Position numbers and translations under genes: made by a program. Below are positions 19,393 to 32,966 of a DNA stretch of 64,000 nt, one piece after another. The stretch's first letter is position 1, and every line of letters starts with the position of its first letter. Below the pieces are notes generated by a model that saw only the letters and a list, made by a program, of their open reading frames with translations, did no database searches and had not been told where the DNA came from. The stretch comes from Rhodobiaceae bacterium (lineage in GTDB: Bacteria > Pseudomonadota > Alphaproteobacteria > Parvibaculales > Parvibaculaceae): positions 1,550,001 through 1,614,000 of the forward strand of contig CP030277.1 of assembly GCA_003330885.1 (NCBI GenBank). The letters run 5' to 3'.

Positions 19393-19827
19393 ATGTCAGC
19401 ACATGAAGAACGACTCTATTTCCTGCTACAGGTCGCAGCTCACCGCCTAAAAACCGAAGCAGACAATGTATTGATGGATGTCGCCGGCCTCACCACCGCG
19501 CAGGTCGCAGTCCTCAACCTCATCGCCTCATCTACACAAGTGAGGCAAAGGGATCTCGCTCGACGCCTTAAACAAAACGAGTCAGCCATCACCGCTATGA
19601 TAACGCGGTTGACCAAAGCTGACCTTGTTGCCCGCCGCCGCAGCGACACCGACGCGCGCACCTGGTTACTGGAACTGACAGACAATGGAAAGAAAACGCT
19701 GAAACGCGCAGAAAAACCTTTTAGGGACATCAATGCGCGTTTGGACGAAGCATTGGGAACAAAAGCCACCGCAGACATGGCCAAACACCTCGCTGCGATC
19801 ACTGAGGAATTCTCAAAAGGCGACTAA
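19393..19827 (+). CDS. MarR-family transcriptional regulator
   Basis: 144 residues with the MarR winged helix: helix-turn-helix in QVRQRDLARRLKQNESAITAMITRLTKADLVARR (about 53-87) and a wing RRRSDTDARTWLLELTDNG. MarR dimers usually repress nearby genes and release DNA on binding small phenolic or lipophilic ligands. It is followed 35 bases later by an MFS transporter on the same strand and is divergent from an amidohydrolase. The palindrome at 19329-19344 lies between them and could control both directions. Confidence 0.92.
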   Translation: MSAHEERLYFLLQVAAHRLKTEADNVLMDVAGLTTAQVAVLNLIASSTQVRQRDLARRLKQNESAITAMITRLTKADLVARRRSDTDARTWLLELTDNGKKTLKRAEKPFRDINARLDEALGTKATADMAKHLAAITEEFSKGD

Positions 19828-19862
19828 CGTCCTTCCCCCCTCCAAAATCAAAAAGGTTGAGT

Positions 19863-25155: not shown

Positions 25156-25305
25156 ACATGGAGATATCCGTGCCAGGGCACAGGCGACTCAAAAGTCATC
25201 TAGGCGGCGCCACCTTAATGCGGCCAGGACGGTTTGGGAACACTCCTGGTGAATGGTCCTATTCCGCCGAAATGGCGACAAACTGGCCCGGCGGTCGGGG
25301 CAAAA

Positions 25306-25335
25306 GGTTGACATAATCAACAATCGGGGAATATT
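25306..25335 (+). promoter_or_regulatory. Promoter of marR with overlapping GTTG-N7-CAAC operator
   Basis: TTGACA at 25308-25313 and AATATT at 25330-25335 (16-base spacing) look like a housekeeping promoter. The dyad GGTTG-ACATAAT-CAACA at 25306-25322 covers the -35 box and matches the two sites before the MAPEG gene, suggesting autorepression. Confidence 0.6.
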
Positions 25336-25393
25336 GGGTTTGAGCTCTCCGCGCTTAAGATCCCTCAGCGTTGGCAGTCTCTCAAAGGAGCAA

Positions 25394-25864
25394 TTGGGCA
25401 ATCAGTGCCTTGCAGATCAAATGATAAAACGCCCCCAAATTAATGCCGAAAAGACGATCGGCGTCGCATTGCATCAGGCGAGCTACCTTTTCAAAACCGC
25501 CATGCGGTCTGCCTTTCAAGCCGAAGGCCATGATGCAACACCGGAAGAATTCGTAACTCTGATGCTCCTGCCGGAAACAGGCATTGACCATGGCGACCTT
25601 GTTATAAAACTCAAAAAAGAGAAGACAAACGTCGCCAGGCTCCTTGCGCGCATGGAGGGCAAGGGATGGATAAAGCGCGCCGTCCACGCGCAAAGCGGGC
25701 GACAGCTAACTATTTCCATAACACCGCTAGGCGCCAAGACCCGGCAGCACCTTCTCCCAATTGTTCAAAAAGTGGCAACCAGAGCCTTGGACGGCACCAA
25801 AGACGCGGACGTTGAGACGACGCGCCGCACACTCACAAGATTTGCCAACAATCTGATGACCTAG
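25394..25864 (+). CDS. MarR-family transcriptional regulator
   Basis: A winged-helix MarR protein, 156 residues from TTG 25394 or 147 from ATG 25421 (MIKRPQINAE). TTG is preferred because AAAGGAG lies just upstream of it, while the ATG has no ribosome binding site. The HTH is around ETGIDHGDLVIKLKKEKTNVARLLARMEGKGWIKR, with a wing VHAQSGRQLTISITPLG. It is followed after 127 bases by a MAPEG gene and an RND exporter gene. Its own promoter and the MAPEG leader carry the same TGTTG-N7-CAACA dyad, so it is the obvious regulator of both. Confidence 0.88.
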   Translation: MGNQCLADQMIKRPQINAEKTIGVALHQASYLFKTAMRSAFQAEGHDATPEEFVTLMLLPETGIDHGDLVIKLKKEKTNVARLLARMEGKGWIKRAVHAQSGRQLTISITPLGAKTRQHLLPIVQKVATRALDGTKDADVETTRRTLTRFANNLMT

Positions 25865-25908
25865 ATCAGCCCACGTCAAAGACGCTGCAAAACCCGACCA
25901 AATTTAAT

Positions 25909-25959
25909 TGTTGATAAAGACAACAGTTGATCATATTTATATTGTTGTATTTATCAACA
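25909..25959. promoter_or_regulatory. Tandem TGTTG-N7-CAACA operator sites
   Basis: Two 17-bp dyads, TGTTG-ATAAAGA-CAACA (25909-25925) and TGTTG-TATTTAT-CAACA (25943-25959), with centres 34 bp apart. They are also inverted relative to each other, so the whole region can form a long stem (16 of 17 pairs). They lie 33 bases before the MAPEG ATG. Confidence 0.75.
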
Positions 25960-25991
25960 TTCTGAACAGTAAACGAAAAGGAACATCCAAA

Positions 25992-26384
25992 ATGCAGGAA
26001 GCCATCGTCTTCGCATGCCTGATCACAGTGGTGATGTGGTTGCCCTACTTGGCAGCATCCGCCGTCGTACAAGGTGTGGGTTCGGTTCTGGGCGGCGATC
26101 CAAAATCTGACCTGACCCCACTCCCGGCCTGGGCAACCCGGCTTCGTCAGGCACACGCCAACGCAGCTGAAAACCTGGCGGCTTTTGTCGGTGTCTGTTT
26201 TGCAGCGTCGCTGACGGAAAATGGCGAGACGACGGTCGTCGCTGTTGCCTTCATTTACACCTACGCGCGGATTGCCCACTACCTCTGCTACGGATTCGGC
26301 GTTCCCTTTTTCCGCACCCTCAGCTTCATCGTGAGCTGGCTCTCCATCGTCTATATCGGCATCTCAAGCCTCGGCCTGATTTGA
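25992..26384 (+). CDS. MAPEG family membrane protein
   Basis: 130 residues with four predicted membrane helices: helix 1 at about 3-25, then a polar loop WATRLRQAHANAAENLAAF where MAPEG proteins (microsomal glutathione transferase / FLAP family) carry their conserved Arg-x-x-(A/N)-x-x-N-x-x-E residues. RIAHYLCYGFGVPFFRTLSF follows, then the last helix. AAAAGGAAC lies before ATG 25992. It is 52 bases from the RND exporter on the same strand, with two MarR operator candidates upstream, so it is probably an inducible detoxification operon. Glutathione-dependent activity is possible but not certain. Confidence 0.85.
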   Translation: MQEAIVFACLITVVMWLPYLAASAVVQGVGSVLGGDPKSDLTPLPAWATRLRQAHANAAENLAAFVGVCFAASLTENGETTVVAVAFIYTYARIAHYLCYGFGVPFFRTLSFIVSWLSIVYIGISSLGLI

Positions 26385-26436
26385 TCAAAACTGGTCGCCG
26401 GAAAATGGTCCGCGCACCTGACAATAGGAAAAATCA

Positions 26437-28761
26437 ATGATCGTCAAATATGCAGAACTTCTCATCAGATGGCGCTGGCTTGTTATTATCACAGCGATAA
26501 TCGCAGTCGGAGGCGTAGCCAGCGGCGGAAGATTCCTGGGATTTACAACGGACTACCGCGCGTTCTTTTCCCCCGACAATCCGGAGCTTCGCGCGTTTGA
26601 AGCACTGCAAGCAAGCTACGACCGCGCAGACAATGTCGTCTTCTTGATCACGCCCGCCGACGGGCATGTCTTCACAAATCAAACACTGACCAGCATAAAA
26701 TGGCTCACTGAAAAGGCCTGGCAGGTGCCCTATTCTACGCGTGTGGATTCAATCACCAATTATCAACATTCGCAGGCGTTTGGAGATGATCTGGTGGTCG
26801 GTGATCTGGTTCAAGACCCAAGCGCAGCCAGTAGCGCTGACCTCTCTCAAATAGAGAAAATTGCGTTGAATGAGCCCCTCATTGTGAAAAGGATCATCAA
26901 CGAGGACGCGTCCGTTACAGGTATCAATGTCACGATACACCTTCCCGGAAAATCGATGACTGAGGTGCCGGAGGTTGCAGCCTACGTCAGAAACTTAGCC
27001 AGAGAGCTCGAGGCTAGAGACCCAAATTTACAGGTAGGCCTCACTGGGATGGTCATGTTCAACAACGCCTTTGGCGAAAATGCTCGACAAGACATGACGA
27101 CACTCGTCCCGCTTATGTTCCTGGCCATTATCATCCTGCTCGGTTTGTTTTTTCGTAGCGTCAGCGCAACAATCGCAACGACCCTAATGTTGTTTATGTC
27201 AATACTCGCTGGCATGGGTGCTTTTGGTTGGACAGGCTACAAGCTGACGCCGCCATCAGCATCAGCACCGAACATCATCCTGACAATCGCCGTAGCACAC
27301 ACGGTACACTTCCTGATTACTTTCCTAGCAACCATGAGGGCTGGTGGTGACAAAGAATCTTCCATCGTTGAGAGTCTTCGCGTCAATTTTCAGCCAATCT
27401 TTCTAACCTCGCTCACCACAGTTATAGGATTTCTGGCGCTAAATACGTCGGACGTCCCACCGATAGTACATCTGGGAAACATCGTCGCCGCAGGCGTCAC
27501 CGCAGCCTTTGTCCTGAGCGTCACGTTTCTCCCGGCATTTATCGCTGTTATGCCTGTCCGCGTGAAGGCACGGCCCGACAAGACACATACGATCTTTGAT
27601 ATTGTTAGCCGCACTGTTAGCGACAATTATCGACTTGTGCTGTTTGGTACGTTAGCCCTCACCCTGGTCTTTGTGGCGTTCATCCCAAACAACGAGATCA
27701 ACGACGATTTCGTGACCTATTTTGATGAGAGCACGGAGTTCCGTCAGGACACCGACTACGCCATTGAAAACCTTATCGGGCCCAACAACATTCAATATGC
27801 ATTGCAAGCAGATGAATCCGGCGGTGTGAACGAGCCGGCATTCCTGGCAGATGTTCAGAAGTTTGTGGACTATCTGCACACGCAGAAGGAAGTCCACCAC
27901 GTCTATGCAATCACTCAGACGATGAAACGTCTGAACCGGAACATGCACGGTGATTCACCAGCGTGGCACCGGCTTCCCGACGAAAGAGAGATCGCTGCGC
28001 AATATCTTTTGCTCTACGAAATGTCGCTACCTTATGGCCTAAACCTGAACAATCAGGTCAATCTCGATAAATCCGCGACACGCGTGACCATTGCCTTTGA
28101 CGCAATGACCACCAAGCAGATGTTGGGCGTCGAACATCGGTTTGATTTGTGGCTCAAGGAGAACCTGCCTCATATTCGGTTCGAAGCATCCAGTTCCAAT
28201 TTGATGTTTTCTCACATCGGGCAGCGGAGCACGCGAAGCATGATCAGTGGTGCGCTCATTGCGATCATACTGATCTCTACCATTCTCGTGATCGTCCTAA
28301 GGTCGTTCAAAATCGGCTTCATAAGCCTGATCCCAAATCTCATCCCTATTGGCATAGCCTTCGGCATCTGGGGATTGATGATCGGAGAAGTAGGCTTATC
28401 CCTTGCGCCCGTTGTAAGCATGACGCTTGGCATCGTCGTTGACGACACAATCCACTTCCTCAGCAAATACTTAAGAGGGAGGCGGGAGCAGAACTTGGAC
28501 GCAGGTGCGGCTATCCAGTACGCCTTCAGGCAAGTGGGATCGGCGTTAACCGTCACGACGTTTGTTTTGGTCGCAGGATTCATGGTCCTGACCTTGTCGC
28601 CATTCAGATTAAATTCCGACATGGGGCTGCTTACTGCCATCACGATTGCTGTGGCCCTAGTCGTTGATTTCCTTCTCCTGCCATCTCTGCTTATGGCAGT
28701 AGACAAGGATCGGCCGTCCAATCAACCCAGCGGTCTGCCCGCTAGCTCCGCGGCCGATTAA
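26437..28761 (+). CDS. RND superfamily exporter (MMPL/COG1033 type)
   Basis: 774 residues with two-fold RND architecture: helix 1 (WRWLVIITAIIAVGGVA), a periplasmic domain to about 215, five helices to about 380, then helix 7 at about 395, a second periplasmic domain to about 590 and five more helices. The proton-relay-like motif GIVVDDTIHFLSKY is present in the second half. The equivalent position in the first half reads IAVAHTVHFLITF, so Asp is lacking there. There is no partner adaptor or outer-membrane gene, as is normal for this single-component class. Probably exports a hydrophobic compound or lipid. It is the second gene after MAPEG, likely under the MarR regulator at 25394. Confidence 0.88.
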   Translation: MIVKYAELLIRWRWLVIITAIIAVGGVASGGRFLGFTTDYRAFFSPDNPELRAFEALQASYDRADNVVFLITPADGHVFTNQTLTSIKWLTEKAWQVPYSTRVDSITNYQHSQAFGDDLVVGDLVQDPSAASSADLSQIEKIALNEPLIVKRIINEDASVTGINVTIHLPGKSMTEVPEVAAYVRNLARELEARDPNLQVGLTGMVMFNNAFGENARQDMTTLVPLMFLAIIILLGLFFRSVSATIATTLMLFMSILAGMGAFGWTGYKLTPPSASAPNIILTIAVAHTVHFLITFLATMRAGGDKESSIVESLRVNFQPIFLTSLTTVIGFLALNTSDVPPIVHLGNIVAAGVTAAFVLSVTFLPAFIAVMPVRVKARPDKTHTIFDIVSRTVSDNYRLVLFGTLALTLVFVAFIPNNEINDDFVTYFDESTEFRQDTDYAIENLIGPNNIQYALQADESGGVNEPAFLADVQKFVDYLHTQKEVHHVYAITQTMKRLNRNMHGDSPAWHRLPDEREIAAQYLLLYEMSLPYGLNLNNQVNLDKSATRVTIAFDAMTTKQMLGVEHRFDLWLKENLPHIRFEASSSNLMFSHIGQRSTRSMISGALIAIILISTILVIVLRSFKIGFISLIPNLIPIGIAFGIWGLMIGEVGLSLAPVVSMTLGIVVDDTIHFLSKYLRGRREQNLDAGAAIQYAFRQVGSALTVTTFVLVAGFMVLTLSPFRLNSDMGLLTAITIAVALVVDFLLLPSLLMAVDKDRPSNQPSGLPASSAAD

Positions 28762-28892
28762 TCTGGCCAATGGCCGGCTGTTTTGGACACCCATGATGCA
28801 CAGCGTTGGACTCAAGGGCCGGCGTTGTGCATCGACGTATCTACCCGTCGACTTAAAATCTCGATTTTGTTGGATGTGTGCCACGTCACGCA

Positions 28893-28924
28893 CAAAAGAA
28901 AACGGCGGCCCAATGGACCGCCGT
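28893..28924 (-). terminator. Rho-independent terminator of the small secreted protein gene
   Basis: On the minus transcript ACGGCGGUCC pairs with GGGCCGCCGU (one G-U pair) around a 3-base loop, followed by TTTTCTTTTG. The wobble pairs only on the minus strand, which gives the direction. Confidence 0.85.
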
Positions 28925-28947: not shown

Positions 28948-29196
28948 TTAGTTGACCATGCCCTGCCAGACAGGCCAGCAAGTGTTGCCAGCTGATGCAG
29001 CGATCTTGGACTGGGCGTCCTTCGCGTCAGAACCATCAGCAGCTTCGACATAGTCATCTTTACCGGTGCACCAAACATAGAACTGGTGCTTGCCAGCTTT
29101 AGACATGCTGTCGAAGTTTGAATCCAGCGCCATCGCACCAGTGCTCATCATCGACATGCCTGCAGCGATCCCCACAATGGCAGCAAACTTCTTCAT
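28948..29196 (-). CDS. Small secreted protein with two cysteines, unknown function
   Basis: 82 residues. Signal peptide MKKFAAIVGIAAG... with cleavage after GAMA leaves about 58 mature residues starting LDSNFD. The mature part has exactly two cysteines (VWCTGK and NTCWPVW), probably one disulfide, and aromatic residues next to both. A strong GAGGGAGAA ribosome binding site and its own strong terminator mark it as a real single gene, possibly well expressed. No family is recognised. Confidence 0.75.
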   Translation of the reverse strand: MKKFAAIVGIAAGMSMMSTGAMALDSNFDSMSKAGKHQFYVWCTGKDDYVEAADGSDAKDAQSKIAASAGNTCWPVWQGMVN

Positions 29197-32682: not shown

Positions 32683-32966
32683 CCCACCTCATGCGACAAG
32701 CCAGCCTTGACGCCTCCCTCTGCCAGCATTATCTCTGAGACAAGCTATGGAGGCTTGATGCTAATTGTGAGTGCCCTTCGGTAACCCAGGGTCTAAGCAT
32801 TTCCAGGAAAAGTGCCAAAAGGAACTTGGCGGTTTTCCGTCCGGAAATGCGACAAATAGATTCCTGAGAGGTTACCCCGAGTTCCCTGCGCCGCGGCTCG
32901 CCGCGCGGGCGTGTTGCTTTGCGCAACAGCTAGATACTCCCCAATACACTCCAGGGCACAATTCCA

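Follow-up and report, generated by a model that had tools for sequence, protein, structure and literature searches.

The MexR regulator of Pseudomonas aeruginosa has two sites, PI and PII, which each contain an inverted GTTGA repeat and overlap the mexR and mexAB-oprM promoters; the PII oligonucleotide holds GTTGACCTTATCAAC, a GTTG-N7-CAAC dyad (PMC9892617). Another member of the MarR family, BhbR2 (Pigmentiphaga kullae), has an A+T-rich palindrome, TTGATT-N5-AATCAA, over a -35 box, and activates a catabolic operon (PMC12016517). The 64-kb stretch of Rhodobiaceae DNA analysed here (the window) contains a marR gene followed by genes for a MAPEG-family membrane protein and an RND transporter, together with three predicted operators, O1 to O3 (Table 1). 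All three dyads are inverted GTTG...CAAC repeats with seven bases between the half-sites, as in the PII oligonucleotide. The layout is also similar: the MexR sites are found at the regulator's promoter and that of the RND operon, and the predicted dyads at marR and at MAPEG-RND. The difference is that the marR, MAPEG, and RND genes run in one direction, the MAPEG gene comes before the transporter gene, and the RND protein is of the MMPL/HAE3 type. BhbR2 and the window MarR share an A+T-rich TTGAT-type palindrome covering a -35 box, whereas the 17-bp length of the dyad, its spacing, and the role of BhbR2 as an activator of a catabolic operon set them apart.

No paper linking MAPEG with the MarR family was found in a literature search that had most subscription journals outside its coverage, and the term "MAPEG domain" was in none of the best 10 of 25 papers from a looser search for MAPEG and MarR. 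We know of no described MAPEG-MMPL pair.

Table 1. Features of the marR-MAPEG-RND region, with coordinates in the window.
Feature	Coordinates	Strand	Description
Segment absent from sister species G003	25224..28892	.	Contains O1-O3, marR, MAPEG, and RND; bounds are blastn match ends
Operator O1 (predicted)	25306..25322	.	GGTTGACATAATCAACA, GTTG-N7-CAAC; overlaps a TTGACA hexamer (25308-25313) that resembles a -35 box in the likely marR promoter
marR, MarR-family winged helix-turn-helix regulator	25421..25864	+	147 aa from ATG; Pfam PF01047
Operator O2 (predicted)	25909..25925	.	TGTTGATAAAGACAACA, exact TGTTG-N7-CAACA
Operator O3 (predicted)	25943..25959	.	TGTTGTATTTATCAACA, exact TGTTG-N7-CAACA
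MAPEG-family membrane protein	25992..26384	+	130 aa; Pfam PF01124
MMPL/HAE3-type RND transporter	26437..28761	+	774 aa; 52 bp after MAPEG

The three dyads are real. As the preliminary description had stated, they share GTTG and CAAC half-sites with a 7-base spacer, and the centres of O2 and O3 lie 34 bp apart before the MAPEG gene. Its reading of all three as TGTTG-N7-CAACA is correct for O2 and O3; O1 has one mismatch to this longer form, and GTTG-N7-CAAC is the core common to the three. The spacers are alike in length, not in sequence. The distance between O2 and O3 corresponds to 3.2 helical turns, so two dimers bound there need not face the same side. None of the dyads is in the list of terminator-like elements from a terminator scan of the region. 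In dinucleotide shuffles, two GTTG-N7-CAAC dyads occurred in the 127-bp marR-MAPEG spacer in 0 of 20,000 trials, and one dyad occurred in the 238-bp tRNA-marR spacer in 73 of 20,000. The core is found at five places in the window (19856, 25307, 25910, 25944, and 32913), against 1.2 expected from the half-site counts. O1 had also been placed over the -35 box of marR. A TTGACA hexamer does overlap it; the promoter scan, with 4 promoter-like sites where shuffles averaged 3.4, predicts no better than chance.

The gene described earlier as a marR starting at 25394 is confirmed as a MarR gene, with 27.1 bits to PF01047 against a cut-off of 24.6 in a Pfam scan from that start. However, the ATG at 25421 makes a more likely start than the in-frame TTG at 25394, because the ATG of the orthologue aligns with it; a possible ribosome site (AAAGGAG) before the TTG leaves some doubt on this choice. 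The MarR fold is clear from Pfam and from 12 PDB sequence matches. The best of these is 8xt8, another MarR-family regulator (1e-9), and the MexR structures 3mex (3.6e-4) and 1lnw (3.9e-4) are the weakest. With this weak match, and with an RND protein that is not of the mexAB-oprM type, the locus does not appear orthologous to that of MexR. Counted from the ATG, neither the window MarR nor the MarR of the orthologue contains a cysteine; the TTG start would give the window protein one near the N-terminus. The predicted cysteine-free protein speaks against a cysteine redox switch in MarR.

The MAPEG domain (PF01124, 9.1e-21, 74.8 bits) covers residues 7-126 of 130, the full length of its protein, which gave no PDB match with phmmer at 0.001. 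The RND protein matches Pfam MMPL (PF03176, 2.3e-34) in two stretches, and NCBIfam HAE3 (TIGR00921, 3.2e-46) with 157.7 bits, under the curated cut-off of 351.9. By these profiles the protein is a member of the HAE3/MMPL superfamily, without assignment to the HAE3 subfamily. In the PDB, it is nearest in sequence to HpnN and MmpL4. The MAPEG and RND genes of the preliminary description are thus borne out by their domains, the transporter being of the MMPL/HAE3 type, with no ORF for an adaptor or outer-membrane partner seen beside it (further neighbouring ORFs were judged by eye). An 82-aa ORF at 28948-29196, on the strand opposite to RND, has no Pfam match. Among 29 further loci with relatives of the RND (L037-L065; flanks up to 1.5 kb), none had a MAPEG match.

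The MarR was matched at 1e-12 in two of the 40 family genomes: the source genome and the Rhodobiaceae MAG NORP32 (NVWR01000001.1; G005), of the same genus. The conservation comparison covers this one orthologue, the only one found. Its MarR and MAPEG proteins share 65% and 68% identity with those of the window, respectively, and the marR, MAPEG, and RND genes are in the same order, adjoining thyA (named by eye). The counterparts of O2 and O3 are GTTGCAATATACAAC and GTTGCATTTAGCAAC, both GTTG-N7-CAAC dyads and 34 bp apart as in the window. The dyad spacers and the DNA between O2 and O3 have diverged, whereas the half-sites and the 34-bp spacing are kept. Conservation of the dyads at the orthologous locus, suggested earlier as a check, therefore holds for the MAPEG promoter and fails at the marR promoter: the thyA-marR spacer has no TTG-N7-CAA, and the best place there for the operator matrix introduced below scores negatively, at rank 23 of 16,418.

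Distant relatives were searched in 398 genomes of the phylum, using a profile from two MarR sequences. The window's own match aside, 33 matches were found in 29 genomes, all in one other family (f188, loci L098-L130); these loci are related to each other, and counts among them are not independent. The MarR proteins share 24-35% identity with the window MarR. Like the window gene, most of these marR genes have TTG-N7-CAA, mostly as TTGA-N5-TCAA, within 250 bp upstream (25/33 loci, 23 of them with the dyad between -75 and -25), while other spacings from 3 to 15 were found in 1 to 12 loci. The longer GTTG-N7-CAAC was found upstream of marR in 11/33 loci, and any other spacing from 3 to 15 in none or one. 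The dyad is absent from 8 of the 33 loci. Since the TTG-N7-CAA pattern had come from the window, a motif-free dyad search was run on the same loci with all four-base half-sites and gaps of 0-16. It gave TTGA-N5-TCAA in 17/33, TCAA-N3-TTGA in 15/33, and GTTG-N7-CAAC in 11/33, whereas the highest count reached in 100 two-base-block shuffles was 4. The TCAA-N3-TTGA form is probably the junction of paired dyads. These promoters often carry two TTG-N7-CAA dyads, at about -52 and -36 from the ATG; their distance of 16 bp differs from the 34 bp in the window. A divergent gene for outer-membrane efflux (OEP) is present in both loci that were scanned, L100 and L107; of the six loci whose ORFs were read, L098 and L109 resemble these by eye, and L127 and L131 do not. 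No MAPEG match was found in 14 of the f188 loci (L098-L111).

A matrix was built from 36 distinct f188 sites, without the window sequence. The sites had been chosen with TTG-N7-CAA, which makes the matrix partly circular; this is met by the motif-free search. Among 63,980 window positions, O1 (25308), O2 (25911), and O3 (25945) took ranks 1, 2, and 3, with scores of 25.6, 23.4, and 22.5, respectively. On the G005 locus, the two MAPEG-promoter dyads took ranks 1 and 2 of 16,418, and a third high-scoring place (L096:15189) lies inside the tmRNA gene. The fourth place in the window, at 27190 inside the RND gene, scored 15.4. As an operator it was rejected as probably due to chance, and in the orthologue a similar coding place (L096:9773) reaches only 5.1.

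These results bear on whether the dyads arose by chance, as palindromes of A+T-rich spacers that no regulator uses. Loose matches are indeed common, with 98 GTTG-N7-CAAC sites in the genome (68 for the reversed control) and 49 two-mismatch matches to TGTTG-N7-CAACA in the window against 32 expected. Chance is nevertheless scarcely credible as the source of all three, since the O2/O3 pair never arose in the spacer shuffles, the pair and its spacing are kept in the orthologue, and the matrix places the window dyads at the top. It is very likely, from these comparisons, that O1 to O3 are operators of the adjacent MarR, which would repress MAPEG-RND through O2 and O3 and marR through O1. This interpretation is preferred because the orthologue keeps O2 and O3, the distant MarR promoters carry the dyad, and the window dyads hold the first three matrix ranks. 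On the same grounds, the proposal in the preliminary description that the dyads are MarR operators, two of them at MAPEG-RND, is well supported.

The position of O1 is less firm. Only the MAPEG-promoter dyads might be functional, and O1 might be a chance resemblance around the TTGACA -35 box, with no autoregulation. The sole orthologue has two dyads at MAPEG and none at marR, the shuffle rate for a single upstream dyad is less extreme than that for the O2/O3 pair, and the TTGACA hexamer alone supplies half of the O1 dyad. However, O1 is the best place in the window for a matrix made without its sequence, and the dyad recurs at the marR promoters of the distant relatives; the marR of the orthologue sits elsewhere, beside thyA, where its promoter may simply have been replaced. 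A chance origin of O1 is thus considered unlikely. Autoregulation by O1, as claimed earlier for this MarR, is likely on the matrix score and the promoters of the distant relatives, but less so than control of MAPEG-RND, because the only orthologue has no dyad at marR and the case rests on the source genome and distant kin.

Other MarR loci were compared for the presence of the dyad. GTTG-N7-CAAC was found in none of 14 other MarR loci, and TTG-N7-CAA was found upstream of marR in none of the 10 alignable ones; the smaller count leaves out L010, L013, L014, and L019, which gave no tblastn match, and the larger one took in all. Among 385 class genomes, the sole other MarR match at 1e-12 was locus L020 (genome G065). 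Its E-value of 5.7e-20 compares with 5.4e-18 for the best f188 sequence, and it is the nearest to the window MarR in the tree after G005; it has no TTG-N7-CAA upstream. L020 is close to the window MarR yet dyad-free, so closeness in sequence is no simple predictor of the dyad. In the recognition-helix region, (K/R)(D/E)K...R is found in the window MarR, in G005, and in 33/33 f188 sequences; L020 has KDR, and the other nine comparison MarRs differ more. The tree grouped the window MarR with the f188 sequences weakly and on long branches, so the operator may or may not be of common descent. Plasmid records gave one MarR match at 1e-8, on a Leptospira plasmid, with 31% identity over 77% of the query.

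The dyad-free L020 would suit a different DNA-binding protein (TetR, LacI, or FNR-like) using the dyads instead of MarR, as would similar dyads elsewhere in the genome, such as GTTGCAATTTGCAAC in L078, which lies between genes for a TetR protein and a hydrolase. FNR sites are TTGAT-N4-ATCAA, 14 bp in length, one base longer than the TTG-N7-CAA core, which argues against an FNR-like protein. A global regulator would require enrichment of GTTGW-N5-WCAAC, and this form is not enriched in the genome (21 against 18 for the reversed control). The dyad is also found at the promoters of related MarR genes in the distant family f188. Use by another regulator is quite improbable, and the adjacent MarR remains the preferred candidate.

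The exact TGTTG-N7-CAACA form occurs 18 times in the 3.86-Mb genome, against 3 for the reversed control. Twelve of these sites fall within ORFs that match Pfam, including DUF1302 (twice), a peptidase, proteins of the glyoxalase superfamily and with a TetR domain (one each), and enzymes of the fatty-acid, isoprenoid, and CoA kinds. Three are in ORFs without an assigned Pfam match (L085, 117 aa, and L090, 188 aa, scanned with no hit; L003, 841 aa, unscanned); the remainder are O2, O3, and a site at 32912 near a YjhX ORF. As most sites are inside ORFs, the excess over the control is mostly coding sequence. For the GTTGW-N5-WCAAC sites, coding and intergenic places could not be told apart by a stop-free-frame measure. 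Whether further hits lie at transport or GST genes had been suggested earlier as a check; no such Pfam match was found among the scanned ORFs holding an exact site, and the one closest to detoxification is the glyoxalase-superfamily ORF, with the site within the gene. When 48 of the 98 GTTG-N7-CAAC sites were scored by the matrix, O1 to O3 were again the top three. Next come a site in the tmRNA gene (18.6) and one in a reading frame that is RuvX-like by eye (L077, 15.1). No wider regulon was seen among these 48.

Several other dyad places were considered individually. The tmRNA is permuted and alphaproteobacterial (L079 765-1136; G000:C1:1879464-1879835), and its tag-coding part contains GTTGCAAATGACAAC. 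This dyad is a false positive as an operator; the 15-mer is found with at most one mismatch in 7/7 genus genomes. In the window, GTTGAGTATGTCAAC overlaps the start of an MFS transporter gene at 19857, which is present in 6/7 genus genomes. It was rejected as a target: the dyad is kept there in 0/5 genus orthologues, the start in G003 and G008 reads GTTGAGTATGTCC, and L145, L146, and L147 have unrelated GTTG-N7-CAAC sites elsewhere in the locus. Directly upstream of this gene is a second MarR-like ORF (19393-19827, 144 aa, named by eye). The exact site at 32912-32928 is about 40 bp upstream of an ORF for a YjhX-family toxin (PF09857, 2.5e-37); it is inside a 90-aa ORF, probably spurious, and outside the top 15 of the window matrix scan. 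The palindrome of L078 (1013-1027; G000:C1:1890012-1890026), between the TetR gene and the alpha/beta-hydrolase gene, is perhaps a TetR operator.

For the sister species G003, the alignment to the window stops after 25223 and resumes at 28893, with 47 bp of G003's own DNA between, so that about 3.7 kb is missing. Genome G008 aligns to 23758, and past that point, in the 15 kb compared, only over 59 bp of the tRNA region. Judging by these alignments, marR-MAPEG-RND behaves as a compact accessory set; gain in the source genome and loss in G003 fit the data equally. The absent segment adjoins tRNA-Leu(taa); on the far side of this tRNA, other DNA of about 2.4 kb is present in G003, and G008 diverges after the tRNA. 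This tRNA may be an insertion hotspot.

Based on the above analyses, a mechanism can be proposed. The MarR dimer would insert one recognition helix into each GTTG/CAAC half-site. MarR bound at O2 and O3, between marR and MAPEG, would block the MAPEG-RND promoter; at O1, which covers the likely marR -35 box, it would reduce synthesis of the regulator itself. Both units would be derepressed once MarR is released, probably through a hydrophobic or electrophilic compound, one that MAPEG modifies or RND moves. We infer the binding, the repression, the promoters, the ligand release, and the substrate. The ligand-inducible detoxification module of the preliminary description would be conjectural, as would drug export. 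Repression is preferred to activation as the direction of the effect, although BhbR2 shows that activation is possible. A more specific picture, possible but rather doubtful, is that of a small mobile module in which MAPEG conjugates or reduces a hydrophobic membrane compound, the MMPL/HAE3-type RND protein moves the product, and a MarR with MexR-type operators senses the same compound.

In summary, the dyad set is very probably an ordinary, well-supported case of the known MarR operator arrangement, which keeps genes for a membrane enzyme and a transporter off until they are needed. The MarR thereby gains a predicted operator, which could be tested in one gel-shift experiment. One switch would tie together two poorly understood families of membrane proteins, MAPEG and MMPL/HAE3. 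The recurrence of the MexR-type GTTG-N7-CAAC at marR promoters of proteins with such low identity might be helpful for the prediction of MarR operators.
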